Positions 39,407 through 53,335 of a DNA stretch of 64,000 nt are shown here, piece by piece (the stretch's first letter is position 1; the number at the start of each line of letters is the position of its first letter). Source of the DNA: Streptomyces nitrosporeus (lineage in GTDB: Bacteria; Actinomycetota; Actinomycetes; Streptomycetales; Streptomycetaceae); assembly GCF_008704555.1 (NCBI RefSeq), contig NZ_CP023702.1:1922001-1986000 (forward strand). Reading direction: 5' to 3'. The position numbers and the translations under genes are program-made. Below the pieces are notes generated by a model. The model saw nothing but the letters and a program-made list of their open reading frames with translations, did no database searches and had not been told where the DNA came from.

Positions 39407-40513
39407 TCAGCGCTCGGAGGCCGCCAGCTGTCCGCAGGCCCCGTCGATCTCCTGGCCGCGGGTGTCCCGGACGGTCACCGGCACACCGTGGGCGGCGATG
39501 GCCTCCACGAACGCCTTCTCGTCCTCGGGCCGCGAGGCGGTCCACTTGGAGCCCGGCGTCGGGTTCAGCGGGATCAGGTTGACGTGTACCCGCTTGCCCT
39601 TGAGCAGCCGGCCCAGCAGGTCACCGCGCCATGCCTGGTCGTTGATGTCGCGGATCAGCGCGTACTCGACGGAGATACGGCGTCCGGACTTCTCCGCGTA
39701 CTCCCAGGCGGCGTCCAGCACCTCCCGCACCTTCCAGCGGGTGTTCACCGGCACGAGGGTGTCGCGCAGTTCGTCGTCCGGGGCGTGCAGGGACACGGCG
39801 AGACGGCACTTGAAGCCCTCGTCGGCGAAGCGCAGCATGGCCGGGACCAGTCCCACGGTGGAGACGGTGATGCCCCGCTGCGAGAGCCCGAGCCCATCCG
39901 GCTCCGGGTCGGTCAGCCGCCGGATCGCACCGACCACCCGCTTGTAGTTGGCCAGCGGTTCGCCCATGCCCATGAAGACGATGTTCGACAGCCGCGCCGG
40001 CCCGCCCGGGACCTCGCCGTCGCGCAGGGCCCGCATGCCGTCCACGATCTGGTGGACGATCTCGGCGGTGGACAGGTTGCGGTCGAGACCCGCCTGGCCG
40101 GTCGCGCAGAACGGACAGTTCATCCCGCACCCGGCCTGGGAGGAGATGCACATGGTGACCCGCTCGGGGTACCGCATGAGGACCGACTCGACGAGGGTCC
40201 CGTCGTGCAGCTTCCACAGGGTCTTGCGGGTGGTGTCGTCGTCACAGCTGATGTGGCGCACCACGGACATCAGGTCGGGGAACATCGCCTCGGCGAGCTT
40301 GTCCCGCGACCCGGCCGGGATGTTGGTCCACTCGGCCGGGGCGTGCGCGTACCGCGCGAAGTAGTGCTGCGAGAGCTGCTTGGCGCGGAACGGCTTCTCG
40401 CCGATGGCCGCGACCGCCTCCTTGCGCTCGTCGGGTGTGAGGTCGGCGAGGTGCCGCGGCGGCTGCTTGGCTCCGCGGGGCGCGACAAAGGTGAGTTCTC
40501 CGGGCTTAGGCAT
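39407..40513 (-). CDS. rlmN: 23S rRNA/tRNA adenine C2-methyltransferase
   Basis: Radical-SAM enzyme methylating C2 of A2503 in 23S rRNA and A37 of some tRNAs; 368 residues. The cluster motif is CGMNCPFC (CxxxCxxC), preceded by VCMIS-like [25 protein letters not shown] and the C-terminal [14 protein letters not shown]-like [11 protein letters not shown] confirm the family. The ribosome-binding site (GGAAG), ATG and first seven codons lie inside the 43-base repeat at the left end of the integrated element. The coding sequence is therefore intact, but everything further upstream is element DNA. In the uninterrupted chromosome it would follow cdsA. Confidence 0.93.
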
Positions 40514-40536
40514 GGTTCTTCCAGTGTCGCAGACAC
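40494..40536. repeat. attL: left 43-bp direct repeat of the element
   Basis: Identical to 54663-54705 over 43 bases, with sequence differing on both sides. It covers the ribosome-binding site, start codon and first codons of rlmN. Within it, TGTCGCAGACA has inverted arms (TGTC/GACA), a plausible strand-exchange core. With the integrase gene beside the other copy, this defines the element's ends. Confidence 0.93.
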
Positions 40537-40684
40537 GCCGAGGTACCCCGGGTCGTCGCCCAGCTCAGCGGTGATCCGGGCGGTCCGGCGCCGGTCATTG
40601 ATGGTGGTTGTGGGTCGTCGTTGGCTACTCCTTGACGGCCCACAGACGGCCCGGCCCTATGGCCCCGTCCGCAGGTCAGGGCCG

Positions 40685-41506
40685 TCAGCCAGCGCTGCCG
40701 GTCGGGACAGTGCCGACGGCCAAAAGGTGCGAGCTGGCGGCGAGCAGTTCCGGGTACGGCTCTGCCATACGGGCCGCGTCCATGGCTGAGGCGATCAGCT
40801 CATCCGTGGGACCTTCGCCCGGCTGCTGCTCTGCCGCCTTCACCAGCGACCAGGCCGGGCCCTCGATGCCGAAGACCTGCACGGTCTCAAGCCCGGAGGC
40901 GACCAGTTCCGTCACCAGCTCTTCGGCCCGGTGGAAGTAGGACAGGGTAAACCCCCGCGCTCCGTCGTAGACCGCCGTCTCCAGAATCTTGGAGACAGAG
41001 TTGTGAATCCGCTCGGTGTGCAGGTGGGCGTACGTGACGTGCTCGAAAAGCGACGCATAGCGATTGATCGCGGCTGCGGCGACCAGCCCGCCAGGCTTGG
41101 CCACGCGGGATGCCTCCGCGAGGGCCCGCTGCCGGTCGGCGGGGTCCGGTAGGTGGTAGAGCGGCCCGAGGAGCTGCACGACGTCGAAGGTGTTGTCGGG
41201 CTCGGACAGGTCGCGCGCGTCCCCGACAGTCGCCGGGCACACTGCCGACGCGGCTTCAACGTGACGGGGCACGGGATCCACCAGGGCGACGTCGTAACCG
41301 TCCTTCACGAGCCATTCAGCGTGAATCCCGGTTCCCCCGCCCACGTCGAGCACACGTGCTGGCGCAGGGGGCAGAAAACGCCGGAGGAGTTCTTGGGTCC
41401 TGACCAGTTCCATCCGACCGTCTGCCGAGCTGCGCAGACGACTGTCCTCGTTGACCGTCTCGCCATAGAACCGCATCACGGAGGGAGCCAATTCGAGATT
41501 CGACAT
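40685..41506 (-). CDS. Class I SAM-dependent methyltransferase
   Basis: A 273-residue methyltransferase with motif I VLDVGGGTGIHAEWL near residue 52, the acidic VALVDPVPRHVEAA and the motif IV-like DVVQLLGPLYHLPDP, typical of small-molecule methyltransferases. Substrate is unknown. It is the element's left-most gene and diverges from the GntR gene with a shared operator, so it is probably controlled by that regulator. It points toward rlmN with 171 bases between, so its promoter could also read into rlmN. In pSAM2 a different accessory gene (a Nudix-type protein) serves transfer immunity; whether this enzyme has such a role is speculation. Confidence 0.85.
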   Translation of the reverse strand: MSNLELAPSVMRFYGETVNEDSRLRSSADGRMELVRTQELLRRFLPPAPARVLDVGGGTGIHAEWLVKDGYDVALVDPVPRHVEAASAVCPATVGDARDLSEPDNTFDVVQLLGPLYHLPDPADRQRALAEASRVAKPGGLVAAAAINRYASLFEHVTYAHLHTERIHNSVSKILETAVYDGARGFTLSYFHRAEELVTELVASGLETVQVFGIEGPAWSLVKAAEQQPGEGPTDELIASAMDAARMAEPYPELLAASSHLLAVGTVPTGSAG

Positions 41507-41524
41507 GGTCGCAGTATCGTGTGT

Positions 41525-41543
41525 ACCGGTGGACCAGTCCAGT
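41525..41543 (+). promoter_or_regulatory. GntR operator copy A
   Basis: First of three copies of a 19-base sequence ACCRGTGGACCRGTCCAGT. It lies in the 56-base gap between the divergent methyltransferase and GntR gene starts, so a bound repressor would cover both promoters. The centre TGGACCAGTCCA is an imperfect palindrome. Confidence 0.75.
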
Positions 41544-41562
41544 GCAGGAAATAGGGGAAGCC

Positions 41563-42279
41563 ATGGCAGTCCTGAAGTACGAAGAGATCGCAGAGTTCCT
41601 GCGTGCCCGCATTGCCGCTGGTGAGATCGCACCCGGGGCCACGATCCCATCGGGCCGCGAACTGGCTGAGCAGTGGAACGTGTCACGGGCCACCGCCATC
41701 AAAGCCGTCGACGTACTGCGCAACGACGGCGTAGTCGTGGCCAAGCAAGGAACCGGGTTCGTCGTCACGGAGATGCCCGTGGCGCGCCCTGCTGGCGCTC
41801 GCCGCGCGGGTTCTGCTCGCATCCTGGGCGGGATGCCGTTCCAGCGCGTCGGGGAACCCGACTGGGCTGAACCCCCTATCCGCGTCGCTGCCGCCCTCGG
41901 CCTCTCCCCCGGAACAACGGCGCTTCGGCGCGTTCGGGTCCTACAACTCCCGGACGGAACACCGAACAGCTGCGTTGAGGCGTGGTTTCCCCCGGAGATC
42001 GCAGAGGTGTCGCCGCGCCTTGCCGACACCAACCCGATCGCTGAAGGGACGACACGCTATGTACGACGACAAACCGGGCGGGGTCCGTCAGAAGGCGTGG
42101 ACATCACAACCGTGCGCCTTGCCTCAGAGACAGAGGCGGACCTCCTAAAGGTGCCGCAAGGCACCCCGGTCGCCGTACTACTGCACACCGCGTACGACGA
42201 GCAGGGGAAGCCGTTGGTGTGCGAGGAGGGAGTCACGCCGGCGTCTCTCTTCGAGCAGGTGGACACCTACGCGATGTAG
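41563..42279 (+). CDS. GntR-family regulator (KorSA-like)
   Basis: A 238-residue regulator. An N-terminal GntR winged helix (residues about 3-70) reads YEEIAEFLRARIAAGEIAPG and SGRELAEQWNVSRATAIKAV. A UTRA effector domain (about 95-235) contains TALRRVRVLQ and TTVRLASETEADLLKVPQGTPV. GntR/UTRA proteins in this position (such as KorSA of pSAM2) repress transfer and replication genes. The ATG at 41563 has AGGGGAAG just upstream; translation from the earlier in-frame GTG would run through operator A. Three matching operators support autorepression and control of neighbours. Confidence 0.9.
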   Translation: MAVLKYEEIAEFLRARIAAGEIAPGATIPSGRELAEQWNVSRATAIKAVDVLRNDGVVVAKQGTGFVVTEMPVARPAGARRAGSARILGGMPFQRVGEPDWAEPPIRVAAALGLSPGTTALRRVRVLQLPDGTPNSCVEAWFPPEIAEVSPRLADTNPIAEGTTRYVRRQTGRGPSEGVDITTVRLASETEADLLKVPQGTPVAVLLHTAYDEQGKPLVCEEGVTPASLFEQVDTYAM

Positions 42280-42302
42280 CCAGCAAGAGACGCCAAAGAG
42301 AG

Positions 42303-42332
42303 CTGGACCAGTGGACCGGTCCAGTTTTTTTT
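42303..42332 (+). terminator. GntR operator copy B, also shaped as an intrinsic terminator
   Basis: The 19-base operator recurs at 42307-42325. Its arms CTGGACC (42303-42309) and GGTCCAG (42318-42324) can form a stem directly followed by eight T residues (42325-42332), the classic form of a Rho-independent terminator and rare in this GC-rich DNA. It lies 24 bases after the gntR stop codon. Confidence 0.7.
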
Positions 42333-42382
42333 ATTTCCCAAACCCCCCCCTCACCTGCACCTTCATACGGAAAGAGGGCAAC

Positions 42383-42403
42383 ATGAGCAAACCCATCGCT
42401 TGA
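42383..42403 (+). CDS. Possible six-codon leader peptide (MSKPIA)
   Basis: ATG to TGA over seven codons, with AAGAGGG eight bases upstream, in an unusually AT-rich stretch between operators B and C. Its stop codon abuts operator C. It may be a leader peptide or chance; nothing but the ribosome-binding site and position supports it. Confidence 0.25.
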   Translation: MSKPIA

Positions 42404-42421
42404 CTGGACCGGTCCACCGGT
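42403..42421 (-). promoter_or_regulatory. GntR operator copy C (inverted)
   Basis: Third copy of the 19-base operator, on the minus strand, within a 10-bp inverted repeat (ACTGGACCGG / CCGGTCCAGT, 42403-42412 and 42417-42426). It lies about 50 bases upstream of the next small gene and probably represses it and the transfer genes beyond. Confidence 0.75.
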
Positions 42422-42469
42422 CCAGTCTCTTGTTGTGGCCACCACCCGATCCGGAACTTTCGGAAAGAA

Positions 42470-42688
42470 GTGGTGACCAACGCAGAAGGGGCCTTCTTTG
42501 GGCTGCTTCAAACTGCGCCCGTCGGCTCTCCGCCGGACCGCATCGCTGAACAACTCCACAGTGTGATCCACCGCAGCACGACGGCCGTGACGACACCGGC
42601 CGGGGCGAGTGGAGACCAGTCGGCCGAGAAGGGGCTCCCGTCACACCGGGGCCTGACACCCCAGACGGGGGACACGCCACCGACTTGA
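42470..42688 (+). CDS. Small hypothetical protein of the element
   Basis: A 72-residue protein, GTG start (42470, or 42473) with GGAAAG just upstream. The N-terminal part reads GAFFGLLQTAP and DRIAEQLHSVIHRST, likely one amphipathic helix; the C-terminus is Gly/Pro/Thr-rich and probably disordered. I recognise no named domain. It follows operator C and precedes the first tRNA-like minihelix, so it may be expressed early in transfer induction. Confidence 0.5.
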   Translation: MVTNAEGAFFGLLQTAPVGSPPDRIAEQLHSVIHRSTTAVTTPAGASGDQSAEKGLPSHRGLTPQTGDTPPT

Positions 42689-42783
42689 AAGAACCGCACG
42701 GCACACCTTGAAGCTGCCTCCCCAGACGTCCGGGATTTCGGATCTCCCCGGATCGAGCGGCGCCGTGCGAATCGGAGAACCGA

Positions 42784-42833
42784 GCCCCGGCAGTCACGCC
42801 GTGAGGGCGCCCGATCGACTCGGGCCCGGGGCG
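42784..42833 (+). ncRNA. tRNA-like minihelix 1 (acceptor stem plus T arm)
   Basis: GCCCCGG (42784-42790) pairs perfectly with CCGGGGC (42826-42832). Between them, after an 18-base linker containing TCACgccGTGA, is a 5-bp T stem (GCCCG/CGGGC) with the 7-base loop ATCGACT. The order and sizes match a tRNA acceptor stem stacked on a T arm, without D and anticodon arms. Two relatives occur at 44750 and 46233. Confidence 0.55.
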
Positions 42834-42869
42834 CTGCCGCCAACCGAGGCGGCTGACACATAACGGCGC

Positions 42870-42899
42870 GCGGCCCCGGGTCTAGCCACCCGGGGCCGC
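42870..42899 (+). terminator. Perfect 12-bp hairpin
   Basis: GCGGCCCCGGGT and its complement enclose the loop CTAGCC, 37 bases before the next start codon. It could terminate upstream transcription or shape the 5' end of the transfer message. Confidence 0.6.
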
Positions 42900-42935
42900 T
42901 GTTGGGCCGTTCACCTGCGAAGGAGATAACGACCC

Positions 42936-43244
42936 ATGAAGAACATCGTTGCTGGTCATGTGGCCGTTACGGCCACCGAGTTCATCGAGTTGGCTCTGGG
43001 TATCGATCTGGAGCTGTTCACCGGTCCGGCTGTCGAGTCTGCGATGGAGCGGGCGGCGCGGCTGGACGTGGCCCGGGAGGTCCTGGCGGAGCTGCGGGAG
43101 TCGGACCCGGAGGCCGCGGCTTACGCCGCCTCCCTGCTGCGCACCTTGCCGCTGAAGGCCCGGCCGGACGGCCGGCGCCCGCACCACATGGCCCACCGCC
43201 CGGCCGCGACGGGCGTCACCGCCGGTTCGGCGGTGGCCGCATGA
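42936..43244 (+). CDS. Small hypothetical protein, first of an overlapping transfer cluster
   Basis: A 102-residue protein with an excellent ribosome-binding site (GAAGGAGAT). Residues 1-70 are likely helical (EFIELALGIDLELF, ESAMERAARLDVAREVLAEL); the C-terminal 30 residues are Arg/His/Pro/Ala-rich. I recognise no domain. Its TGA overlaps the next ATG. The strong start suggests it leads the operon of spread/transfer genes. Confidence 0.65.
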   Translation: MKNIVAGHVAVTATEFIELALGIDLELFTGPAVESAMERAARLDVAREVLAELRESDPEAAAYAASLLRTLPLKARPDGRRPHHMAHRPAATGVTAGSAVAA

Positions 43245-43528
43245 GCAAGCACACTGCGCAGATGTCCATCCGAGATGGCCGGTGGTGCCTGTACGTCGCG
43301 CTGATGCGCGTTCGGGTGTCCCAGTGGCCGGAGCACGACTTCGGCCCGGCCGTCCAGGTGCCCACGGTGGCCGAGCGTTCACGGGCGCTCATCGCCCTCG
43401 GTTTCGTGTTCACCGAGGGCGCCGAGTGGGAGTGGACGGAGTACAGCGAGACGCCGGATGACGACACCTCCCCGGTGCGGCTGCTGGCCTCGGTTCAGGT
43501 GCGTTCACTGGACGGAGCCGTGTCGTGA
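43241..43528 (+). CDS. Small conserved element protein (DUF6303-like)
   Basis: A 95-residue protein (YVALMRVRVSQWPEHDFG, VPTVAERSRALIALGF, EWEWTEYSETPDD). From memory it resembles small proteins filed as DUF6303 that accompany spread genes in Streptomyces elements; that assignment is tentative. Its ATG overlaps the upstream stop and its stop overlaps the next GTG, so it is firmly part of a coupled series. Function unknown. Confidence 0.65.
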   Translation: MSKHTAQMSIRDGRWCLYVALMRVRVSQWPEHDFGPAVQVPTVAERSRALIALGFVFTEGAEWEWTEYSETPDDDTSPVRLLASVQVRSLDGAVS

Positions 43529-44403
43529 ACAGGTCCGCGAAGTTTCTGCTGGTGGCCGCGTTGGTCGCGGTGGTCGGTATGGCGTTTCGGGTGTCGTGGA
43601 ACGCACTGCGGGACGTCGCCCGTGCGATCGGTGCCGATTCGACCGCGGCGACCCTCTACCCGTTCGTCATCGACGGTTTGATGGCCCTCGCGCTCATCGC
43701 CACCCTGGTCCTGGCCGGCAAGGACCGCCAGTTCGCCCTCAAGGTGCTGGGCGGGTACACGGCCGCGTCGCTGGTCCTGAACTATGTGCACGGCCTGGTC
43801 CCCGCACTGCACCAGCCGGGGGCGGGCATGGTCCGCCTCGCACACTGGGACAGCGCACACTACGCACTCGTCCTGATCGCGACGTCCCTGCCGGTCGGGG
43901 CGATCTTCTTCGGGTCCGATCTGGTCGCGAAGGTGCTGCACCACCGCCCCACCACCGAGACCGTGCGGGTGCTGGACGGGCAGGAACCCGCCCCCGACCC
44001 GCACACCCCCGCACACCCCGCGCAGGAACCGGCAGCCGAGCCCGCCGGGCTTCCCGCACCGGCTCCCGCTCTGGAGCCGTCCGCGCAGGCCACGGGAGGA
44101 ACGGGCACCGTACGGGAGGCCGATCCGCACACCCCGCACGATGCCCGCACACCCGCCGCGGAGACGCCGGAGGAACTGCTGCACCGGGAGCAGTTCGAGG
44201 AGGCGGAGCTGGAGCGGATGCGGCAGGACGCACGCCGCGCGTATGCCGAATCCGCACAGGCGGGCCGTCCGCTCAGCGCCCGTGCGCTGGGCGAGGCGTT
44301 CGGCATGAGCGAGTCATGGGGACGCAAGCAGATCCTCGCCGTCCGCGACGACGAAGAGTCCTCCCGCCCGCACCTGCGGGCCGTCGAGACCGCGGCCGTG
44401 TGA
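43525..44403 (+). CDS. DUF2637-type membrane protein with C-terminal helix-turn-helix (spread protein)
   Basis: A 292-residue protein. The N-terminal 140 residues hold four hydrophobic helices (about 7-24, 44-65, 72-90 and 112-132), as in DUF2637 proteins of mobile elements. A long Pro/Ala/His/Glu-rich linker (145-215) leads to a helical C-terminus with RPLSARALGEAFGMSESWGRKQIL, a likely helix-turn-helix. This suggests a membrane-tethered DNA-binding protein, perhaps acting with TraB in intramycelial spread. The GTG start overlaps the previous stop codon. Confidence 0.75.
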   Translation: MNRSAKFLLVAALVAVVGMAFRVSWNALRDVARAIGADSTAATLYPFVIDGLMALALIATLVLAGKDRQFALKVLGGYTAASLVLNYVHGLVPALHQPGAGMVRLAHWDSAHYALVLIATSLPVGAIFFGSDLVAKVLHHRPTTETVRVLDGQEPAPDPHTPAHPAQEPAAEPAGLPAPAPALEPSAQATGGTGTVREADPHTPHDARTPAAETPEELLHREQFEEAELERMRQDARRAYAESAQAGRPLSARALGEAFGMSESWGRKQILAVRDDEESSRPHLRAVETAAV

Positions 44404-44729
44404 TGGCCTCCCTGCCTGTCTACCGGTGACGCCTGGCCCCCGACGGCTTGGCCACCCGCCGCCAGCTCCGCGCCCTCGGGCTGCGGCCCGGCGGCCAAGA
44501 TGTCGCCGCGCAGCTTGAACGGCCGCGGCGTCGTCGGGGTCCGCTGGTCGCCTACCTCTACCGCATCGACCACGCCAGACCGGTCCGGCCGATGACCCCG
44601 GCCCGCCAGGCCGCGCTCGCCGCGGCGATGCGGGCCCGCCGCACCTGCCCCAACTGCCGGCAGGTCCGGGGGTACTGCATCCCGCGTTCCCTCGGCATGT
44701 GCGTGCCCTGCGCCGACTCCGGCGCCTGA
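44403..44729 (+). pseudogene. RRQRL-type zinc-binding protein with an in-frame TGA at codon 9
   Basis: The frame from ATG 44403 reads MASLPVYR, then TGA (44427-44429), then RLAPDGLATRRQLRALGLRPGG and on to a C-terminal zinc-like site CPNCRQVRGYC...CVPC. Relatives I remember read LPVYRWRLAP, so the TGA most likely replaces a TGG tryptophan codon. Either the gene is broken, or translation restarts at the in-frame TTG (44448, giving a 93-residue protein), or the stop is read through. The ATG overlaps the previous stop codon, consistent with a formerly full-length gene. Confidence 0.7.
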
Positions 44730-44749
44730 ACCAGCCCCTGACCACCACC

Positions 44750-44797
44750 GCCCCGGAGCACGGCGTGAGGCTGCCGGATCGACTCCGGCCCGGGGCA
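44750..44797 (+). ncRNA. tRNA-like minihelix 2 (acceptor stem plus T arm)
   Basis: GCCCCGG (44750-44756) pairs with CCGGGGC (44790-44796). The T stem is GCCGG/CCGGC with loop ATCGACT, and the linker is 16 bases containing CACggcGTG. Compared with minihelix 1 the T stem shows a paired G-C to C-G change that keeps pairing, which argues for selection on the RNA fold. It lies 35 bases upstream of the SpdD-like gene. Confidence 0.55.
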
Positions 44798-44831
44798 CTT
44801 AACGAACTCCCCTATCAGGCAGGAGACAGCA

Positions 44832-45320
44832 ATGGAGCAGCTCCCCACCTCCCGGGTGCAGGTTCCCCCGGGCTGGCCGACCGTCCCGGCCGCGCCCGTG
44901 TCCGGGACGGTCAGCCTCTACGGCGAGCAGTCCGGCACCGTCGTCTACGTCCCCGGGCCCGGCGGGCAGATGGTCCCGGTCCTGCGCGAGCACCTGCCCA
45001 CCGCCCCCGCGGTTTACCAGCCGCGGGATCTGACCCCGGCCCCGCTCATCGACCCCCGCGCCCAGCGTCTCGCCGCGGGTGGGCTGCTGGCCGGCGGGAT
45101 CGGGTTCGGGGGCGGGCAGCTCCTGGTCGGTGCCGGGCAGGTCGTGTCCGCGCTGACCGGGCTCGGCTCCGTCGTGATGTGGATCGCAGTTGCGGTCGTC
45201 GCTTCCCGGATCGCCCCGGCCGCGCTCGGCACCGCCCGTACCGGCACGGTCCACCACCACACCACCACGGTCACGCACTCCGCCCGCTGGTTCGGGCGCA
45301 CCACGACGCACGTGAGCTGA
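44832..45320 (+). CDS. SpdD-like spread protein with two membrane helices
   Basis: A 162-residue protein with AGGAGA before its ATG. The N-terminal 75 residues are Pro/Val-rich. Two hydrophobic segments follow (about 80-104, Gly-rich, and 110-130), then a His/Thr-rich tail (VHHHTTTVTHS). Size and layout match SpdD-type proteins that help spread elements along the recipient mycelium; there is no catalytic motif. It is flanked by a minihelix upstream and a 15-bp hairpin downstream. Confidence 0.6.
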   Translation: MEQLPTSRVQVPPGWPTVPAAPVSGTVSLYGEQSGTVVYVPGPGGQMVPVLREHLPTAPAVYQPRDLTPAPLIDPRAQRLAAGGLLAGGIGFGGGQLLVGAGQVVSALTGLGSVVMWIAVAVVASRIAPAALGTARTGTVHHHTTTVTHSARWFGRTTTHVS

Positions 45321-45376
45321 CGGTCCTCTGCCGCCCCCGGTACCGCTCTCGCGGGCCCGGAGGCGGCAGAGGACCG
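45321..45376 (+). terminator. Perfect 15-bp hairpin between spread gene and traA
   Basis: CGGTCCTCTGCCGCC (45321-45335) pairs fully with 45362-45376 across a 26-base loop, starting right after the stop codon. It probably reduces read-through or stabilises the message end; traA starts 38 bases later. Confidence 0.65.
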
Positions 45377-45414
45377 GACAGACCGGCCCGCAGTACCCCA
45401 TCACGGAGGACCGC

Positions 45415-46038
45415 ATGACCAGCAGTTCAGATCAGGTCCGCAACTTCGCGCAGCACCAGGCCGACCAGCCCTTCGGGCCGCCGCAGGGCGATGGGTTCTT
45501 CAACGTTCCCCCGCAGAACGGGCAGCAGGCCGGCGGGCGGCAGCGGGCGCAGCAGCCGAAGGAGGCGCCGACGTACAACTTCCACTTCGGGCCCAAGGAC
45601 GACGGCGGGAAGCGGCAGGGCCGGGGCAGCGGGTCCCGGGTCGGTCAGGGCCAGCAGCAGGGGCAGGGCGGTGGCCGTCGCGGCAGCACTCATTCGCCGT
45701 TGGCGGATCCGGAGTTCTTCACCAACGACGACGTCCGCAACTACTGCGAGGCCGCGCGGGCCGCGTTCATCCAGCTGTCCTTCGACATCGCGATGGCCTC
45801 CGAGGTGCTGAACGCGGTGCTGAAGGAGGTGCCCGACGCGGACGGGAAGCCGTTCGGGTCGCGGATGCGGGCCCGGCGGGTGACCCGGCGCCTGTCGAAG
45901 GTCGCCGACGAGGCGAAGAACGCCGCGAAGAACGCCGCCGCCACCTACGCCGCGTTCCAGCGGGAGTACTCCCCCGAGATGCAGCACAATCCCCGCGCCC
46001 GCCAGCAGCCCGGCCGCCGCTTCGACTTCAACGCGTGA
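45415..46038 (+). CDS. traA: Plasmid transfer protein TraA-like
   Basis: A 207-residue protein. The first 95 residues are Gln/Gly-rich and probably disordered. The C-terminal part holds the recognisable FFTNDDVRNYCEAARAAFIQLSFDIAMASEVL and RRLSKVADEAKNAAKNAAATYAAF, two predicted long helices as in TraA-type proteins of Streptomyces AICEs. Its biochemical role is not established; it accompanies TraB. A small gene overlaps its stop codon. Confidence 0.75.
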   Translation: MTSSSDQVRNFAQHQADQPFGPPQGDGFFNVPPQNGQQAGGRQRAQQPKEAPTYNFHFGPKDDGGKRQGRGSGSRVGQGQQQGQGGGRRGSTHSPLADPEFFTNDDVRNYCEAARAAFIQLSFDIAMASEVLNAVLKEVPDADGKPFGSRMRARRVTRRLSKVADEAKNAAKNAAATYAAFQREYSPEMQHNPRARQQPGRRFDFNA

Positions 46039-46220
46039 GCGGGGACCGCGCCATGGACGCTGCCATCGCTGCCGCCGCCGCTCTCGTCGCCACCCTGACC
46101 GCGGCTCTCACCGACCCGACCGTCACCACCGAGCAGGTGCAGGCCGTCGCTCAGCAGGCCCACGACCGCATCGAGGAAGCCGGGGGCGACTACGCCGGCG
46201 TCTTCCACCGCCTTTCCTGA
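46035..46220 (+). CDS. Small helical protein coupled to traA
   Basis: A 61-residue frame whose GTG overlaps the traA stop (GTGA); an ATG at 46053 is the alternative start. It is Ala-rich and helical (AAIAAAAALVATLTAAL), with an acidic C-terminus ending GDYAGVFHRLS. No family recognised. The overlap and codon use like its neighbours support it as real. Confidence 0.5.
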   Translation: MSGDRAMDAAIAAAAALVATLTAALTDPTVTTEQVQAVAQQAHDRIEEAGGDYAGVFHRLS

Positions 46221-46232
46221 TCAGCGCCACCC

Positions 46233-46274
46233 GCCCCGATGGTCGCAGGGCCGGTTCGACTCCGGCCCGGGGCA
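46233..46274 (+). ncRNA. tRNA-like minihelix 3 (acceptor stem plus T arm)
   Basis: GCCCCG (46233-46238) pairs with CGGGGC (46268-46273). The T stem is GCCGG/CCGGC (46250-46254, 46262-46266) with the fully canonical T loop TTCGACT, and the linker is 11 bases with no hairpin. It begins 13 bases after one stop codon and ends 39 bases before the traB start codon. Confidence 0.55.
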
Positions 46275-46313
46275 CTCGGCACCACCCGCAGCAGAGCTGA
46301 GAGGACACGCACC

Positions 46314-48344
46314 ATGGCACGCAAGACCAGCAAGCACACCAGCACCGGTCCGGGCGCCGAGCAGCGTCACGAGGAGCAGTTGCAGGGCAGTGCCGGGCGC
46401 GGGGACCTGACCGGGTACGTGCTGCACCGGGCCAAGCCGCACCTTCCCCCGTGGCTGACCGCGGCCGGGATCGGTGTGGTGAGCCTGCCCGCGCACTGGC
46501 AGTGGGGCGGCTCGGCCGCGGCCGGCGTCGGTCTCACCCTGGCCTCCGTCGCCCTGTCCGGCGCGACCTGGTGGGCCGGGCGCACGACCAGCAGCCAGCG
46601 CCGTCTGCACTCCGCTGTCACCGTCGCCGCCGGATCCGCGTGGCTGACCGCCGCGGCGCTGGCCGGTCCCGCGTCGGGGCCGCTCGCGGACCTCTACCTG
46701 ATGGGCGCCCCGACGCTGGCCCTGTCGTGGAACATCCGCATGGTGATGCGCCGCAACCCCGATGCCACCGGCACCGAGTCCGTGGACAAGGGGCTGCTGG
46801 AGAAGGTCGGCCTGGCCAAGACCCTGCTCAAGGGGGCGAAGGTGGAGCCGAACCGGGTGACCGTCGGCTACCAGCTGCCGCCCGGTGAACTCGTCAACGA
46901 CGACGTCGCCAAGGCCCTGGTGCGGATCGCGGGGGCGCTGGACGTGGCGCCGAACGCGGTGCGGATGCGCCCGGATCCGGAGTCCGCCGGCCGCGGGGAA
47001 ATCATCGTCGTCCCCCAGGACGTGCTGAAGGACGGCAGCACGTGGCCCGGCCCGTCCGCCCCGGGCGGGTCGATCGCCGAGCCGCTGAACGTCGGCTTCT
47101 ACGAGCACGGCGACCCGCTGTTGATGTGGATGTCCGGTGACCCGGCCGTCTCCCGCAACGCGATGCACCTGCTCATCATGGGAATGACCGGCTCCGGGAA
47201 GTCGGTGTCCGCGCTGAACGCGCTCGCGGAGATCCTGACCCGCCGGGACGCCATCGTGTGGGGCTCCGACCCGGTCAAGGTCACCCAGACCTTCGGCCCG
47301 CTCATCGGCGCGATGGACTGGGCCGCCCTGGACATGGCCTCCACCGAAGCGATGGTCTCCGCCCTCGAAGCGGTCATCCCCGCCCGCACGGCATGGCTCG
47401 CCGCCCACGGCTACAACCAATGGGTCCCCGAAGCCGCCGAGCCCCGCGCCGACGGCAGCCCGGGCGTGCCCTACCTCGTCGCGTGGTTCGAGGAAGCCGC
47501 GAAGTCCCTGCGGGAAGGACTCGACTTCACCGGCATCGCGCAGGAAGCCCGCTCCGCCGGGGTGTCCCTGGTCGTCTCCATGCAGCGCGCCTCCGGCTAC
47601 CAGATGCCCACCGACACCCGCGCCTCCCTCGGCTCGTCCTGGTGCCACGGCGTCCGCGACCACACCGACGCCGGATTCGCCCTCCCCGAGGAAGCCATCG
47701 ACGCCGGCGCCCGCCCCGAAGCGTGGAAGGACAAGAAACCCGGCTACGCCTACCTCGCCGCGAACGGCATCGACCAGGACGAGTGGGCCACCCCCACCCG
47801 CTCCCACAACATCACCGCCGACGACCTCACCGCGATCGTCGCGGACTACGCGGCCGTGCGCCCCACCATCGACCCCGTCACCGCCAAGGCGGCTGCCGCG
47901 GCGGCCGGGAAGCTGTTCACCGACCGGGCCGCCCGCACCGGACACACCGCCCCCAACGCCTCCCTCCCGGCCCCTGCCGGCGGAAAGGACCTCACCCCCG
48001 TGCACGAGGACGACTTCGACGGGATCGACGCGGACGACTTCGACCCCGAGGAGGAGCTGCCCACCCCGGCCGGGACGCTCCAGCTCGCCAACCAGCCCGC
48101 GACCGAGCGGATCGCGGTCTCCCCCAGCGAGGCCCGGGAGGTGATGGTCCGGCTGCTGGAACAGTTCGAGCGGGACGGCATGGAAACCGTCGGCCCGAAG
48201 GAGTTCATGGCCTACTGCGACCAGTTCGGCCGCAAGCGCGGATGGGTCTCCGGAGAGATCGCCCGCATGGTCCTCGAAGGACGCCTCGCCGAGACCGCCG
48301 ACACCGGCCGCTACCGGATCGTGCCCCAGCTCGCCACCGTCTGA
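46314..48344 (+). CDS. traB: TraB-type DNA translocase
   Basis: FtsK/SpoIIIE-like ATPase that moves double-stranded element DNA between hyphae; 676 residues. Two hydrophobic segments (about 55-75 and 105-125) anchor it. The motor has Walker A GMTGSGKSVSAL near residue 290, a Walker B-like YLVAWFEEAAK and VVSMQRASGYQ. The C-terminal winged helix (about 610-670: VMVRLLEQFERDGMETVGP, KRGWVSGEIARMVLEGRL) is where TraB proteins read their 8-bp TRS repeats. The ATG has GAGAGGA upstream. A repeat array overlapping its stop codon is the likely target. Confidence 0.93.
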   Translation: MARKTSKHTSTGPGAEQRHEEQLQGSAGRGDLTGYVLHRAKPHLPPWLTAAGIGVVSLPAHWQWGGSAAAGVGLTLASVALSGATWWAGRTTSSQRRLHSAVTVAAGSAWLTAAALAGPASGPLADLYLMGAPTLALSWNIRMVMRRNPDATGTESVDKGLLEKVGLAKTLLKGAKVEPNRVTVGYQLPPGELVNDDVAKALVRIAGALDVAPNAVRMRPDPESAGRGEIIVVPQDVLKDGSTWPGPSAPGGSIAEPLNVGFYEHGDPLLMWMSGDPAVSRNAMHLLIMGMTGSGKSVSALNALAEILTRRDAIVWGSDPVKVTQTFGPLIGAMDWAALDMASTEAMVSALEAVIPARTAWLAAHGYNQWVPEAAEPRADGSPGVPYLVAWFEEAAKSLREGLDFTGIAQEARSAGVSLVVSMQRASGYQMPTDTRASLGSSWCHGVRDHTDAGFALPEEAIDAGARPEAWKDKKPGYAYLAANGIDQDEWATPTRSHNITADDLTAIVADYAAVRPTIDPVTAKAAAAAAGKLFTDRAARTGHTAPNASLPAPAGGKDLTPVHEDDFDGIDADDFDPEEELPTPAGTLQLANQPATERIAVSPSEAREVMVRLLEQFERDGMETVGPKEFMAYCDQFGRKRGWVSGEIARMVLEGRLAETADTGRYRIVPQLATV

Positions 48345-48473
48345 CACCCCCCTGACAGTCCTGACACCCCTGACGCCCTGACACCGCATTCCCCTAGGTA
48401 GACGGGGGTGTCAGACCCGTCTGACACCCCCGTCTGACGGCTCTGACACCCCGCACCTGACGCCCCTGACGGA
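48341..48473. repeat. Candidate clt locus: array of CTGAC-type 8-bp repeats with a 16-bp inverted repeat
   Basis: CTGACACC occurs exactly at 48341, 48361, 48378, 48421 and 48443, and inverted at 48407. Related CTGAC units start at 48352, 48370, 48434, 48457 and 48466, spaced 8-14 bases apart outside the inverted-repeat gap. Inside the array a perfect 16-bp inverted repeat (48401-48416, 48419-48434) has a 2-base spacer. The array begins in the traB stop codon. In characterised Streptomyces plasmids clt overlaps the 3' end of traB and consists of 8-bp TRS repeats. Confidence 0.7.
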
Positions 48474-48480
48474 CACCCCC

Positions 48481-48654
48481 ATGCCGCTTTTGGACTGGCG
48501 GGACGCCCGCCACTTCGACGCCCACCGGGATCTGCCGTGCGTGCTGTGCGGCAAACCCACCCCCATGCGCAGCCACGACCGCGAGCCGGTCCACAAGGTC
48601 TGCGCCGAGGACTGGTGCGACCACAATCCCCACTCCCACCGCTTCCACAACTGA
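48481..48654 (+). CDS. 57-residue putative zinc-binding protein
   Basis: ATG right after the repeat array, no clear ribosome-binding site. The protein reads LDWRDARHFDAHRDLPCVLC, then KPTPMRSH and KVCAEDWCDHNP. CxxC and CxxxxC pairs with several histidines suggest a small zinc-binding fold. Similar short proteins with MRSH..E..HKVCAE occur in Streptomyces elements, from memory. Function unknown. Confidence 0.6.
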   Translation: MPLLDWRDARHFDAHRDLPCVLCGKPTPMRSHDREPVHKVCAEDWCDHNPHSHRFHN

Positions 48655-48668
48655 CCCGAGGAACCCCC

Positions 48669-48779
48669 GTGATCCGACTCCGTATCCAGGCCGCATTGGC
48701 CTACCGCACCCTGCTCGCCGTGCCCGCGCACGCCACGGTGGGCGCCGACCCGCCCCAGCTTGCCCTCGACATCGCCTGA
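48669..48779 (+). CDS. 36-residue small protein
   Basis: GTG start with GAGGA eight bases upstream, 14 bases after the preceding gene. It reads IRLRIQAALAYRTLLAVPAH and ends PPQLALDIA. Likely one helix. No family is recognised with confidence; the spacing and ribosome-binding site are the main support. Confidence 0.4.
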   Translation: MIRLRIQAALAYRTLLAVPAHATVGADPPQLALDIA

Positions 48780-48785
48780 CAACAC

Positions 48786-48827
48786 CGACGGCGGCCCCCA
48801 TCCGACCAAGAACCGGGGCCGCCGTCG
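48786..48827 (+). terminator. Perfect 13-bp hairpin before the PP-loop gene
   Basis: CGACGGCGGCCCC (48786-48798) pairs with 48815-48827 across a 16-base loop. It separates the transfer module from the replication module; the next start codon is 37 bases away. Confidence 0.65.
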
Positions 48828-48864
48828 TCCAGCACAACTCAACAGTGGAACTGGAGTCCTGAAT

Positions 48865-49965
48865 ATGACGGCACGTACCAAGAAGAAGCAAGAGGTCCTG
48901 GAGATGTTCCCCGGAATGCCCGATCTCCTACCAAAGGCCCCGCCGAAGGCCGTGTCCGGCGAGCATGTGGCCCGCACCCTGGACGAGGCCATCGCCCGCT
49001 CCCACGAGATCCTCGACCAGGCCCTCGCCGAGCACACCATCGTGGTCACGATCAGCCTTTTCTCTGGCGGCAACGACTCCGTGATCGCCTCCCACCTCCT
49101 GCGCGGCCGGGTCAACGCCATCGCCCACGTCAACACCGGCACTGGCATCCCGGCAACCACCACCCACGTCCGGGACGTCACCGCTGCCTGGAACCTGCCC
49201 CTGCACGAGCTGCACCCCCGCGATTCCTACGAGGACCTTGTCCTCGGCCGCGTCATCGCCCGTACCGGCCCTAACGCGGGCAAACGCCAGGTCTGGAAAG
49301 GCTTCCCAGGCCCGGCCGGACACCGCGTGATGTACCGCCGCCTCAAAGACGAACCCCTGATGCGACTGCGGGCTCAGCTCCTCGACAGCCGCCCACGCTC
49401 CGCGAAGGTCGCCTACCTCGGCGGGATGCGCTGGGCTGAGACCCAGCGCCGGTTTCGTAACGCCGAAGCCATCGACGTACAAGGCCGACTGGTTTGGGTG
49501 TCCCCCCTCGTCCACTGGACCGACGCCCACATGCGTGAATATCGGGCCCGTCACCGCTGCCAGCAAGACCACGAGCATGCCAACCACCGCCTGTGCACCC
49601 CGGACGCCCTGCCGCTCAACGAGGTGACCGAACACCTCCACATGAGCGGCGAGTGCCTCTGCGGGGCCTACGCCAAGCCCGGCGAGCTCGATGAGATCGA
49701 GTTCTTCTACCCCGAGACGGCCGCCCGCCTCCGAGCCCTGGAAGAACAGGCCGAACAGGCCGGTCTCCTGGCGTGTCGGTGGGGACGCAAACCTCCCACC
49801 GGCACCGCATCGGAGAGCGGCCCGGCAGGACGGCTGTGCTCCTCCTGCCCCGGCACCAGCGCGTCCGGGGACGACAGCGACACCCTCCTCGATGCCTGGC
49901 GAGACGCCGGACTCATCACTACCCAGCAACATGCCAACTTCCTGCGTCCAGGAGACGCCGCATGA
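48865..49965 (+). CDS. PP-loop (PAPS reductase/DndC-like) protein
   Basis: A 366-residue nucleotide-alpha-hydrolase of the phosphoadenosine-phosphosulfate reductase superfamily. The PP-loop is SLFSGGNDSVIASHLL (SGGxDS) near residue 66. The conserved middle reads GHRVMYRRLKDEPL, and VAYLGGMRWAETQRR follows. The C-terminal third has cysteines in HRC, HRLC, GECLCG, LLACRW and CSSCPG, which could hold a metal or Fe-S cluster, as in DndC. It has no sulfate-assimilation neighbours and overlaps the prim-pol gene by 4 bases, so it is probably a nucleic-acid modification or stress function of the element, not a biosynthetic reductase. The ATG has GGAG upstream. Confidence 0.85.
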   Translation: MTARTKKKQEVLEMFPGMPDLLPKAPPKAVSGEHVARTLDEAIARSHEILDQALAEHTIVVTISLFSGGNDSVIASHLLRGRVNAIAHVNTGTGIPATTTHVRDVTAAWNLPLHELHPRDSYEDLVLGRVIARTGPNAGKRQVWKGFPGPAGHRVMYRRLKDEPLMRLRAQLLDSRPRSAKVAYLGGMRWAETQRRFRNAEAIDVQGRLVWVSPLVHWTDAHMREYRARHRCQQDHEHANHRLCTPDALPLNEVTEHLHMSGECLCGAYAKPGELDEIEFFYPETAARLRALEEQAEQAGLLACRWGRKPPTGTASESGPAGRLCSSCPGTSASGDDSDTLLDAWRDAGLITTQQHANFLRPGDAA

Positions 49966-50852
49966 CCACCCACCTCCTGACCGCCGCCCTGGACGCGGCC
50001 GGGCGCGGGTGGCACGTCTTCCCACTCCGACCCGCCGACAAGCGCCCCGCACTCCACGGCGAGACCGCCTGCTCCCGCACCGGGGACTGTGCCGGCGGGC
50101 ACAGCAAGTGGGAGGACCGGGCCACCACCGACCCCGACCGCATCCACCGAGCCTGGACCACGGGCCGGTTCAACATCGGGATCGCTACGGGCCCGTCCAG
50201 GCTGGTCGTGGTGGACCTTGACGCGGTCAAGGCCAAAGACCCGAAAGGGACGCCTGACGGCGCCACTTCCCTGCAAGCGCTCTGCGAGCGCGCCGGGCAG
50301 GCCGTCCCGGCCACCTACCGGGTGCGGACCGCGAGCGGCGGACACCACCTCTACTTCACCGCCCCATCCGGCATCCGGCTCACCAACACCGCCGGGCTCC
50401 TCGGCCCGCACATCGACACCCGCGCGTGGGGCGGCTACGTCGTCGCCCCCGGCAGCACCGTCAACGGCCACACCTACAAGGTGCTGGACGACGCGCCTGT
50501 GACCCCGCTGCCCGGCTGGCTGCTGGACCTGCTCAAGCCCGCCGACCGGCCCACCGAGCCCGTGCGGCTGTCCGTTCCCCGGCGGGGCAACCGGGCCGCC
50601 GAGACCGCCCTGGAACGCGAAACCGCCCTCGTCGCGAGCACCCCCGAGGGCGGCCGGGAAGCACAGCTGTTCGTGAGTGCCCGGAAGGTGGCCCGGTTCG
50701 TCGGATGGGGCGACCTGACCCGGCACGAGGTCGAAGAAGCATTTCAGAGGGCGGGCGAGGCGGCCGGACTCCCGGCATCCCAGTGCCGCTCAACCCTGCG
50801 CAGCGTCATGAACTGGTCCCTCGCCAACTGCCGGCCGAGGGAGACGGCATGA
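49962..50852 (+). CDS. Bifunctional primase-polymerase (prim-pol)
   Basis: Archaeo-eukaryotic primase-type replication protein, 296 residues. The prim-pol domain (about 1-190) has WHVFPLRPADKRP, the metal-binding VVVDLD, TASGGHHLYF and DTRAWGGYVVAPGS. A helical C-terminal region (about 215-290) contains REAQLFVSARKVARFVGWGD and resembles a primase C-terminal domain. It should initiate replication of the excised element with the DUF3987 protein. The ATG overlaps the previous stop codon (ATGA). Confidence 0.9.
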   Translation: MTTHLLTAALDAAGRGWHVFPLRPADKRPALHGETACSRTGDCAGGHSKWEDRATTDPDRIHRAWTTGRFNIGIATGPSRLVVVDLDAVKAKDPKGTPDGATSLQALCERAGQAVPATYRVRTASGGHHLYFTAPSGIRLTNTAGLLGPHIDTRAWGGYVVAPGSTVNGHTYKVLDDAPVTPLPGWLLDLLKPADRPTEPVRLSVPRRGNRAAETALERETALVASTPEGGREAQLFVSARKVARFVGWGDLTRHEVEEAFQRAGEAAGLPASQCRSTLRSVMNWSLANCRPRETA

Positions 50853-51199
50853 GCACCCGGCCGATCCCCCCTCTGAAATGCCTTCCCGCCACCCCCACCG
50901 GCCCCCACCCCGCCGAACCCGCCCCGGCCACTCCCGGTGGTGGGGCGGCGAAGGGCGTCGCCGAAGGCGTCCCTTCATCGGTTCGTTCTGACCCGCAGAC
51001 CGGAGACGGGCGGTTCCCCGTCGCCTGGCTCACCATCTCCGCGCCCCGCGGCGCCGTCCCCACCGCCACGAGCACCTGCGAGTGCGGACGCAACCTCTTC
51101 GCCGCCGGACACCGCAAAGCCCTCGCCCTGATCGACGATCACACCCGCCACCGTGACACCTGCCCGCTCCGCATCACCGAGGAAAGGAACGTCTCATGA
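50849..51199 (+). CDS. Hypothetical protein within the replication operon
   Basis: A 116-residue protein overlapped by 4 bases at both ends, so firmly in the operon. The N-terminal half is Pro-rich and disordered. The C-terminal half has TSTCECGRNLFAAGHRKALALIDDHTRHRDTCPL, where CxC with later His and Cys may bind zinc. No named family. A replication accessory role is inferred from position only. Confidence 0.65.
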   Translation: MSTRPIPPLKCLPATPTGPHPAEPAPATPGGGAAKGVAEGVPSSVRSDPQTGDGRFPVAWLTISAPRGAVPTATSTCECGRNLFAAGHRKALALIDDHTRHRDTCPLRITEERNVS

Positions 51200-52737
51200 G
51201 CCCGCACGACCCCGAGCTGTGGGCCGGGTTCGAGGAGATGACGGCTGAGGACATCGCCGGACCGGTCTGGGACGAGCCCGTGCTACTCAACCCGCGCGGG
51301 CAGCTCCCGGTGTTCCCCGTGGACGCGCTGCCCGAATGGCTCGCCGCCATGACGGCCGGTGTCGCCGAGGAGACCCAGACGCCCGTCGACCTAGCCGGGT
51401 GCCTCGCGCTAGCCGCCATCGGCACGGCCGCCGGCGGGCGTCTCACCGTGACCGTGCGCGGGCAGTGGAACGAGCCCGTCACCCTCTACACCGCCGTCGC
51501 CCTGCCGCCCGGCAACCGCAAGTCAGCGGTGTTCGGGCTCATGACCAAACCGCTCCTCACCGCCGAGAAGGCTCTGATCGAGCTCACGGCACCGCAGCGG
51601 GCCGAGGCCGCCGCCTCCGCACGGATCGCAAAAGCCGCGGCAGAGAAGGCTGAGAAGATGGCCGCCAACGCCGAGGCCGACAAGCTGGCCGACCTGACCG
51701 CCCAGGCCATCTCCCTGTCCGAGGCCGCCGAGCGGGCCGTCATCCCTGCCGAGCCTCAGCTCGTCGCCGACGATGTCACCGCCGAGAGCCTGACCACCCT
51801 GCTCTCCCAGCAGGACGGACGGATCTCTATCCTGTCCCCCGAAGGGGAGATCTTCGAGATCATCGCCGGACGCTACTCCGGCGTCCCGAACATGGGAATC
51901 TTCCTCAAGGGACACGCGGGAGACATGGCCCGCGTCAACCGCCAGGCCAGAGACGCCCAGTACATCGAGAACCCCGCCATCACCATGGGCCTCGCTGTGC
52001 AGCCCGAAGTCCTCGACGCCATCGGGCAGATCAAGGGCGCCGACGGCCGCGGGCTGCTCGCCCGGTTCCTCTATTCCAAGCCCAAGTCCCTCGTCGGCTA
52101 CCGCAACCTCACCCCGGAGCTCCTGAACCCCGACGTCGCCGACACCTACGCGAAGAAGCTCGGTGGCCTGGCGCTGACGCTCGCGGGTTGGACCGAGGCG
52201 GCTGAACTCACCCTCACCCCCGAAGCTGACGCGGTACTGCTGGCCTACCAGCGCGTCTCCGAATCCCGCCTCCGCGAGGACGGGCCGCTCCGCCCGATCG
52301 TGAACTGGGCCAGCAAGCGCGACGGGGCCGTCGCCCGTATCGCTGGGCTCCTTCACCTCGCCGCCCATCCCGAGGACGCCTGGACCCTGCCTATCGCGGC
52401 CGCCACGATGGCCGACGCCACCCGCCTCGGGGACTACTTCACCGCCCACGCCCTCGACGTCTTCAACGCCATGAAGGCCGACCCCGCCCAGGGCCCCGCC
52501 CACACCCTCCTAACCCACCTGACCGAGACCCGCACCGCCACCTTCACCAAGCGCGACCTCTTCCGCGCGGTACCCCGCAGCGAGTTCCCCGCCATGGGCG
52601 ACCTCGACCCCGCCCTGACCCTCCTGGAGGACCACGGCTGGGTCCGCCAGCAGCCCCCGCCGCCCCGCACCACCCGCGGCGGCCGACCGCCCTCCCCCCG
52701 CTACGAAACTCACCCCCGCATCACCCGCGCCGCCTGA
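51196..52737 (+). CDS. DUF3987-type replication ATPase-like protein
   Basis: A 513-residue protein of the DUF3987/YfjI-like group, usually encoded beside prim-pol proteins and probably a helicase-like ATPase. Seen: PVDLAGCLALAAIGTAAGG, a P-loop variant ALPPGNRKSAVFGLM, a predicted coiled coil (about 125-180, EKALIELTAPQRAEAAASAR onward), SILSPEGEIFEIIAGRYSG with its acidic site and GLLARFLYSKPKSLVGYR. The C-terminal segment (about 430-490) is a likely winged helix. The Walker A reads GNRKS, not GxGKS/T, so nucleotide use may differ from classical helicases. Confidence 0.83.
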   Translation: MSPHDPELWAGFEEMTAEDIAGPVWDEPVLLNPRGQLPVFPVDALPEWLAAMTAGVAEETQTPVDLAGCLALAAIGTAAGGRLTVTVRGQWNEPVTLYTAVALPPGNRKSAVFGLMTKPLLTAEKALIELTAPQRAEAAASARIAKAAAEKAEKMAANAEADKLADLTAQAISLSEAAERAVIPAEPQLVADDVTAESLTTLLSQQDGRISILSPEGEIFEIIAGRYSGVPNMGIFLKGHAGDMARVNRQARDAQYIENPAITMGLAVQPEVLDAIGQIKGADGRGLLARFLYSKPKSLVGYRNLTPELLNPDVADTYAKKLGGLALTLAGWTEAAELTLTPEADAVLLAYQRVSESRLREDGPLRPIVNWASKRDGAVARIAGLLHLAAHPEDAWTLPIAAATMADATRLGDYFTAHALDVFNAMKADPAQGPAHTLLTHLTETRTATFTKRDLFRAVPRSEFPAMGDLDPALTLLEDHGWVRQQPPPPRTTRGGRPPSPRYETHPRITRAA

Positions 52738-52752
52738 AAACGCCCGAAACCT

Positions 52753-53002
52753 CGGACAGAACTGACAGAACCCCCCGACCAGCCGCCTGACCTGCAAAAA
52801 CAAGCGTTTTCGGAGCTCTGACAAAACCTCCGGAAACTCTGACAGAACTCAAAAAACCCCGACCCTAGAACGGTCTGCCCGCGCTGACAGAACCTAGGTT
52901 TTCGAGGTTCTGTCAGAGTTTTTCGAGGTTTTGTCACGCGACCAAAAGCGGTCAACACCGCAGGTCAGAAGCTATACGGCGAGGTTCTGTCAGTTCTGTC
53001 AG
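52753..53002. other. Candidate replication origin with CTGACAGAACCT iterons
   Basis: The 310-base gap after the replication genes is AT-richer than anything around it. It holds four forward copies of CTGACAGAACCT or close variants (52762, 52818, 52839, 52884) and four inverted copies (52905, 52926, 52982, 52993), with a partial forward unit at 52753. The copies at 52884-52895 and 52905-52916 form a perfect 12-bp inverted repeat. Iterons next to prim-pol/DUF3987 genes and AT-rich DNA suggest the origin where those proteins act. No gene is seen here. Confidence 0.7.
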
Positions 53003-53047
53003 CAATTTCCGGGGTTTCCGGACCCCGGGCCGAGCTGAAGGAGCCCG

Positions 53048-53266
53048 ATGGCAACCGCCAAACCGTCCCAGCCCGTCACCGAACTCCCTGCCCGCTACCT
53101 CACCCCCAACGACCTCGCGGAGCTTCTTTCCATCCCGCTGGAGACGGTCTACGCCTGGCGAAAGAAGCGCACCGGCCCTCTCGGGTTCCGCATCGGCAAG
53201 CACCTCCGCTACGACCCCAGCGCTGTACACGACTGGATCAGCAACCTGACCGAACACGCTGCCTGA
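53048..53266 (+). CDS. xis: Excisionase-type DNA-binding protein
   Basis: A 72-residue MerR-like/excisionase winged helix (RYLTPNDLAELLSIPLETVYAWRKKR, GFRIGKHLRYDPSAVHDWI). It should bend att DNA and steer the integrase toward excision. AAGGAG lies ahead of the ATG. The integrase gene follows after a 13-bp hairpin, so the two may be separately tuned. Confidence 0.88.
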   Translation: MATAKPSQPVTELPARYLTPNDLAELLSIPLETVYAWRKKRTGPLGFRIGKHLRYDPSAVHDWISNLTEHAA

Positions 53267-53281
53267 TCACCCAGCTACCCC

Positions 53282-53312: not shown

Positions 53313-53335
53313 CTCTGCACCTGAGGAGCACCACG

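Follow-up and report, generated by a model that had tools for sequence, protein, structure and literature searches.

Minihelices in an integrated element of Streptomyces nitrosporeus

The DNA analysed here, hereafter called the window, is a stretch of 64,000 nucleotides from Streptomyces nitrosporeus (contig NZ_CP023702.1, positions 1,922,001 to 1,986,000). It holds an actinomycete integrative and conjugative element (AICE) whose transfer operon and operon leader contain three short sequences that fold like the acceptor stem of a tRNA stacked on its T arm. We refer to these sequences as minihelices:

42784-42832, + strand: minihelix copy 1, class A, in the 5' leader of the transfer operon (covariance model match of 66.7 bits)
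44750-44796, + strand: minihelix copy 2, class A (covariance model match of 83 bits)
46233-46273, + strand: minihelix copy 3, class B, with the canonical T-loop TTCGACT

A preliminary description of this DNA had reported three same-strand minihelices, and all three were found at the places given there, each ending one base earlier than first described. The extra base (G, A and A, respectively) occupies what would be the discriminator position 73 of a tRNA. Copy 1 is made up of a 7-bp acceptor-like stem (42784-42790 paired with 42826-42832), an 18-nt linker, within which a mini-hairpin lies (42798-42808), and a T-arm-like hairpin (42809-42825), in the order GCCCCGG, linker, GCCCG-ATCGACT-CGGGC and CCGGGGC, and is followed by G73, C74 and T75. 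Copy 2 has a 16-nt linker and the T arm GCCGG-ATCGACT-CCGGC, and copy 3 a 10-nt linker, TGGTCGCAGG, and the T arm GCCGG-TTCGACT-CCGGC; both are followed by A73, C74 and T75. The compensated G-C/C-G difference between the T stems of copies 1 and 2 is real, and so are the tiny linker hairpins described in two of the copies (GCC-GUGAG-GGC in copy 1 and GGC-GUGAG-GCU in copy 2), the linker of copy 3 being without a notable mini-hairpin. The acceptor stem had been given as 6-7 bp; in copy 3 there are six pairs and an A.C mismatch or, equally well, a division into 5 + 7 pairs, with about 12 stacked pairs under either scheme.

It had also been proposed that each minihelix lies between a stop codon and the next start. 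This holds for copy 2, which begins 20 nt after the stop of the gene for an RRQRL zinc-binding protein and has the next start 35 nt after it, and for copy 3, with a stop codon 12 nt before and the start of traB 40 nt after. Copy 1 is not intercistronic in the sense of these two: it stands in the operon leader, 504 nt past the upstream gene and 103 nt ahead of the first transfer gene. Nowhere else in the 7.58-Mb genome is their 3' half (T arm and acceptor) matched perfectly, and a generic scan (7 bp + 5 bp + 7-nt loop) recovers all of them among chance matches of lower quality.

The element and the genes around the minihelices are as follows:

40494-54705: integrated element (AICE), with 43-bp perfect direct repeats at both ends
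40494-40536 and 54663-54705: the attachment (att) direct repeats, 43 bp, perfect, covering the rlmN start codon
41563-42279, + strand: gene for a GntR-family regulator, upstream of the leader
42862-42915, + strand: conserved hairpin, the second in the leader, AACGGC..GCGGCCCCGGG-loop-CCCGGGGCCGC..GGCCGTT, 3' of copy 1 and ahead of the first gene
42936-43244, + strand: first gene of the transfer operon (102 aa; no Pfam match for the product); a DUF6284 gene stands at this place in related plasmids
43241-43528, + strand: gene for a DUF6303 protein
43525-44403, + strand: gene for a DUF2637 (SpdB-like) membrane protein
44448-44729, + strand: gene for an RRQRL motif-containing zinc-binding protein (NF041638), upstream of copy 2
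44832-45320, + strand: gene for a 162-aa protein, directly 3' of copy 2
45415-46038, + strand: traA (NF041213 equivalog)
46053-46220, + strand: gene for a 55-aa protein, directly 5' of copy 3
46314-48344, + strand: traB, FtsK-like DNA translocase (NF041214 equivalog), directly 3' of copy 3
53336-54595: integrase gene

The element also encodes a primase-polymerase. It is an AICE that integrates at a protein-coding gene, at the 5' end of rlmN, and not at a tRNA gene.

Covariation of the stems

The expectation that covarying copies would be found in many elements was borne out. In an alignment of 97 model-aligned matches (A2) 98.9% of the cells pair, and two-sided changes occur at 8 of the 12 pairs, including all five pairs of the T stem. 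Changes on both sides are seen in 72 cells, where shuffles give 12.6 and slid structures no more than 12, and the covariation score is 0.219, against 0.016-0.033 for slid structures. Since this alignment was fitted to the structure and holds a few doubtful rows at E > 0.001, a further test was made with copies from a pattern scan of all 84,980 GTDB species, in which pairing of the T stem was not required and four T-stem positions on each side were left free. In this GTDB set the free positions are fully complementary (G.U allowed) in 83 of 84 copies, against 29.6 with shuffled partners, and the T stems occur in 14 different combinations. G.U wobbles outnumber C.A by 8 to 1, as expected for an RNA of this strand; a hand count in another set (A3) gave 11 to 6, a modest bias. 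Moreover, all 84 linkers hold a 3-bp mini-hairpin whose loop is of the GYGA type, against 26 of the shuffled linkers. In some copies (L012, L085) the linker forms one more hairpin, which brings the fold closer to a cloverleaf.

The existence of such homologues (86 GTDB stretches, with T stems complementary in 83 of 84) excludes chance as an origin of the minihelices; their folding energy does not.

Distribution and structural classes

With the 50-nt copy 2 as query, blastn found complete or incomplete copies in about 15-20 Streptomyces plasmids of PLSDB (pFP11 and S. tsukubensis pSTS1 are two examples), nearly all in unannotated gaps; in one plasmid (L001) three successive minihelices alternate with small genes. 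When a covariance model built from 15 copies (R1) was applied to 393 Streptomyces genomes, 61 proved to hold copies, 77 in total, at E <= 0.001, and among genomes of the order 25 of 198 had copies, one of them from another family. The GTDB pattern scan returned 86 stretches, 85 from Streptomyces and one from Streptantibioticus, all Streptomycetaceae. In IMG/VR, class A was present on 37 contigs and class B on 8. In the collections searched the RNA family was seen only in Streptomycetaceae, with two possible outliers. Two mini-tRNA-like sequences from other families of actinobacteria have a T-loop that is canonical or nearly so (L127 1511-1559, - strand, and L126 1506-1560), the former lying 8 nt past a stop codon beside phage-like genes.

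A generic minihelix scan without loop constraint gave many chance matches on both strands; one with the T-loop letters gave 104 matches, against 0 and 1 for two altered loops, at loci preselected for copies. Matches in phages obtained by blast turned out to be tRNA genes and chance. With Rfam 15 no family scored above the gathering score at the minihelices, the sole match in the window being the Streptomyces RNA Scr5676 (RF02832, 13671-13800, 82.3 bits), and loose thresholds added only chance microRNA matches. No earlier description was found in the open-access literature searched, which does not exclude one elsewhere.

A blast match in a plasmid of Streptomyces sp. NBC_00826, at first taken as a further copy, is actually a CRISPR (clustered regularly interspaced short palindromic repeats) spacer. 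This type I-E spacer, TGAGGCTGCCGGATCAAATCCGGCCCGGGGCAC, lies between cas3 and istB (NZ_CP108874.1; L014 6003-6035) and matches the minihelix, so that the repeated minihelix is itself a CRISPR target.

Two structural classes were distinguished. Class A (copies 1 and 2) has mostly the loop ATCGAAT or ATCGACT and a linker of 13-19 nt, rarely up to 32. Class B (copy 3) has the form GCCCCGATGGTCGYARRCCGGGTTCGACTCCCGGYCGGGGC, is 41-42 nt long and carries the canonical T-loop letters, which were set by the search pattern; this pattern gave 22 copies in 21 of 393 Streptomyces genomes, and the reversed pattern none. The acceptor/T domain is the sole part common to the two classes, which occupy the same kind of site and occur together in one element in the window and in L086, L037, L079 and L023. 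Longer forms were also seen. L039 has a 68-nt tRNA-like form (2098-2165), called tRNA-Glu by ARAGORN, in the same module as minihelices, and in L042 a longer tRNA-like sequence (1797-1882, - strand; also tRNA-Glu by ARAGORN) stands beside minihelices and ends in a class B-like T arm and acceptor. Two identical minihelices with longer linkers lie 5.4 kb apart in L085 (3917-3993 and 9316-9392), which suggests tandem copies of an element. The L037 element also holds a gntR-DTE RNA (RF02989, 628-768, 102 bits).

Position relative to genes

Placement was called with a home-made codon-usage gene caller, in a first set of copies and in the GTDB set, which partly overlap. No copy overlaps a gene (0 of 84 in open reading frames (ORFs), GTDB set). 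The copies are in sense with the next gene in 95 of 96 cases in the first set and in 80 of 80 in the GTDB set, and lie a median of 12 and 11 nt, respectively, past the stop of the upstream gene on the same strand. From a copy to the start that follows there are either 30-50 nt or 95-135 nt, and the second group mostly carries an extra leader hairpin. The genes that follow include traB, those of P4-type primase-helicases and FtsK-like proteins, and many small unknowns.

A position between genes on the sense strand, as had been described for the window, is found for most copies, and in L260 three copies separate four consecutive small genes; about 27 of 96 are instead in 5' leaders. The idea that the minihelices punctuate the transfer message stands in the same way in part: many copies do lie between cistrons, and others are found in leaders or before replication genes. 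Some homologous junctions in relatives have no minihelix (L002), which indicates that the minihelix is gained or lost as a unit.

The second leader hairpin precedes a DUF6284-type gene (42862-42915 in the window, L002 3903-3950 and L003 3483-3540). As it is also present in leaders without a minihelix, we regard it as a separate element. In the window, it and the minihelix both hold GCCCCGG/CCGGGGC. An attenuator based on alternative pairing between the two was considered and discarded, since the second hairpin differs in other leaders and leaders free of minihelices keep it.

Resemblance to tRNA

The acceptor and T stems form a full coaxial stack of 12 pairs in 88 of 99 distinct copies. G1-C72 is conserved, position 73 is a purine in 95 of the 99, position 74 is C in 97 and position 75 is T in 78. 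All 30 host tRNA genes examined encode C74 and most do not encode CCA; the minihelices, which keep C74 without an encoded CCA, follow the same rule. The RNase P RNA of the host is of type A and holds CGGGTAGAC, which in our reading of the sequence resembles the L15 GGU motif. In RNase P RNA the GGU motif binds the 3' RCC of tRNA, and minihelices of stacked acceptor and T stems are cleaved by RNase P in vitro (PMC11221534).

When R1 was run on 395 genomes of the class, 8 weak matches were obtained outside Streptomyces, all of them outside its order as well: five tRNA-Arg(CCG), one tRNA-Leu and two mini-tRNA-like sequences. Class B copies matched the Rfam family mascRNA-menRNA (RF01684) with 24.6-26.9 bits, below the gathering cut-off of 42.5, the best being L079 4536-4577 (26.9 bits, E 0.2). 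In the window itself ARAGORN found no tRNA, and RF00005 gave no match in 42700-46350 at E up to 5. The tRNA-like fold first proposed for the copies is well supported by the purine 73 and C74 shared with host tRNA genes, by the outside matches, which are mostly tRNA genes, and by the resemblance to mascRNA. We have very little doubt that the minihelices are selected RNA elements that mimic the acceptor/T domain of tRNA.

Possible function

Judging from the sequences, we think that the minihelices are probably cut by RNase P and so punctuate the messages of Streptomyces conjugative plasmids and AICEs. We favour this reading, with some reserve, as the simplest account of why just these features should be conserved in parts of a message that are not translated. 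At the minihelix the transcript, nascent or polycistronic, would fold into an acceptor/T-arm domain, which RNase P would recognise and cut 5' of G1 (42784, 44750 and 46233 in the window), and processing of the 3' side after position 73/74 by a tRNA 3' nuclease may follow. Such a cut would leave the cistron that follows, which is a small gene or traB and elsewhere can be a primase/helicase gene, with a separate 5' end 75-85 nt ahead of the start codon and with the ribosome site intact, and separate 5' ends could let the cistrons of one transcript be kept at different levels. Where the minihelix stands in a leader, cutting there would determine where the whole message begins.

Several observations weigh against cutting by RNase P. 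The acceptor GCCCCGG/CCGGGGC is nearly invariant (88 and 87 of 99), which goes beyond any known requirement of RNase P, an enzyme that recognises shape. In class A, loop position 54 is A and not T, and position 58 is G in some copies; the sequence does not encode CCA, position 75 being mostly T. In 27 of 96 cases the upstream gene is divergent and the copy lies in a 5' leader, where no cistrons are separated. The folding energy of the three copies is unremarkable for GC-rich DNA (z about 0 to -1.9) and was dropped as evidence because it is not significant in that background. The nearly fixed acceptor sequence, the A54 of class A and the use in leaders are left unexplained by RNase P; the first of these would be explained by a bound protein or by an excised mimic that acts in trans. 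It could be speculated that a clade of conjugative elements punctuates its operons with minimal tRNAs cut by host RNase P and tRNA 3' nuclease, and that the excised mimics of about 45 nt, which might carry a CCA tail as mascRNA does, remain as small RNAs that act on the host tRNA machinery, with the invariant acceptor as a recognition mark. Taken as a whole we hold this scenario to be doubtful.

The near invariance of the acceptor suggests a partner that reads sequence, and the minihelix might then be a cis-regulatory RNA that is not cleaved, through which a host or plasmid protein (one that binds or modifies tRNA, EF-Tu or a plasmid regulator) controls translation or stability downstream. The positions 31-50 or 95-135 nt ahead of starts, leaders included, would suit such a role. 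Nevertheless, a protein-binding hairpin need not keep the RNase P determinants purine 73 and C74 or the exact length of 12 bp, and the two classes, unlike in their linkers, are found at one kind of site; we consider this explanation unlikely, if worth keeping in mind. Control of transcription, by a hairpin that recurs in the operon and its leader and acts in pausing, attenuation or antitermination, is suggested by a GC-rich hairpin soon after stop codons and in leaders, and by the terminator-like hairpin often found 3' of leader copies. However, no T run follows the minihelix (the flank is ACTC-rich), the downstream hairpin exists in leaders without a minihelix too, a 7-base T-loop, 12 pairs and C74 are more than a terminator calls for, and the 31-50 nt ahead of the next start leave little room for a promoter. 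Such control seems rather improbable to us.

The covariation of the stems would also be expected of a hairpin in single-stranded DNA, and presence at a given junction varies among related elements, as might a site, folded or bound by protein, that serves transfer, replication or recombination of the DNA. The sense orientation, the constant location outside ORFs and just past stops, the preference for G.U over C.A (modest in A3) and the conservation of the tRNA loop letters and C74 make this DNA-level role very improbable. Both attenuation and a DNA-level role are less likely than cutting by RNase P. The alternative offered in the preliminary description, that the minihelices are decayed 3' ends of tRNA genes captured at the attachment site attP in past integrations, drew on the likeness of the T arm and acceptor 3' half to the tRNA part of attachment sites, and some AICEs do integrate in tRNA genes. 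It is rejected as almost certainly wrong: the 5' acceptor strand is kept too and the stems covary, three copies lie inside one transfer operon, all in sense, the att repeats are at the start of rlmN and not at a tRNA gene, and the copies differ from every tRNA of the genome searched with ARAGORN/RF00005.

Comparison with known systems

If cutting by RNase P is true, the minihelices would be the first case known to us in which bacterial genes are repeatedly separated by minimal tRNA mimics of one covarying family. Conjugation genes such as traB might be controlled at these sites, which would also offer natural, putatively minimal RNase P substrates in many sequence variants. The minihelices also open to test the long-standing question of the extent to which tRNA-like signals built into bacterial mRNAs let RNase P shape them. 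RNase P is known to act on tRNA-like structures in RNAs of mobile elements and operons, such as polycistronic mRNAs, the phage C4 and M3 RNAs and 4.5S RNA (reviewed in PMC11143913). These bacterial non-tRNA substrates are single unrelated cases, whereas the minihelices are one covarying family reused in one kind of element. The attP sites that AICEs and plasmids derive from tRNA genes likewise hold the T arm and the acceptor 3' end (for example L002 10-58), but there is one per element, at att and not conserved in structure, while the minihelices are internal and conserved.

A further likeness is with mascRNA and menRNA (RF01684), in which the acceptor and T arm are kept and the other arms shrunken inside a longer transcript; the minihelices have the same layout of a 7-bp acceptor, 5-bp T stem and 7-nt T-loop. 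The mascRNA folds as a small tRNA and is processed by RNase P (PMC11693755). These RNAs are from vertebrates, form the 3' end of single long non-coding RNAs, are about 58 nt long and have both small arms, whereas the minihelices are bacterial, 41-63 nt long, repeated within operons and upstream of ORFs, and no homology is claimed. The tRNA punctuation of mitochondria also sets a tRNA structure between cistrons as a cutting signal, a role that is putative in the minihelices. There, however, the excised pieces are working tRNAs, and the minihelices lack an anticodon arm save in rare longer forms (L039 2098-2165). The proposed mechanism would work like that of mascRNA and of mitochondrial punctuation, with the minihelices a member of neither, and would be a counterpart of both that arose in mobile DNA.

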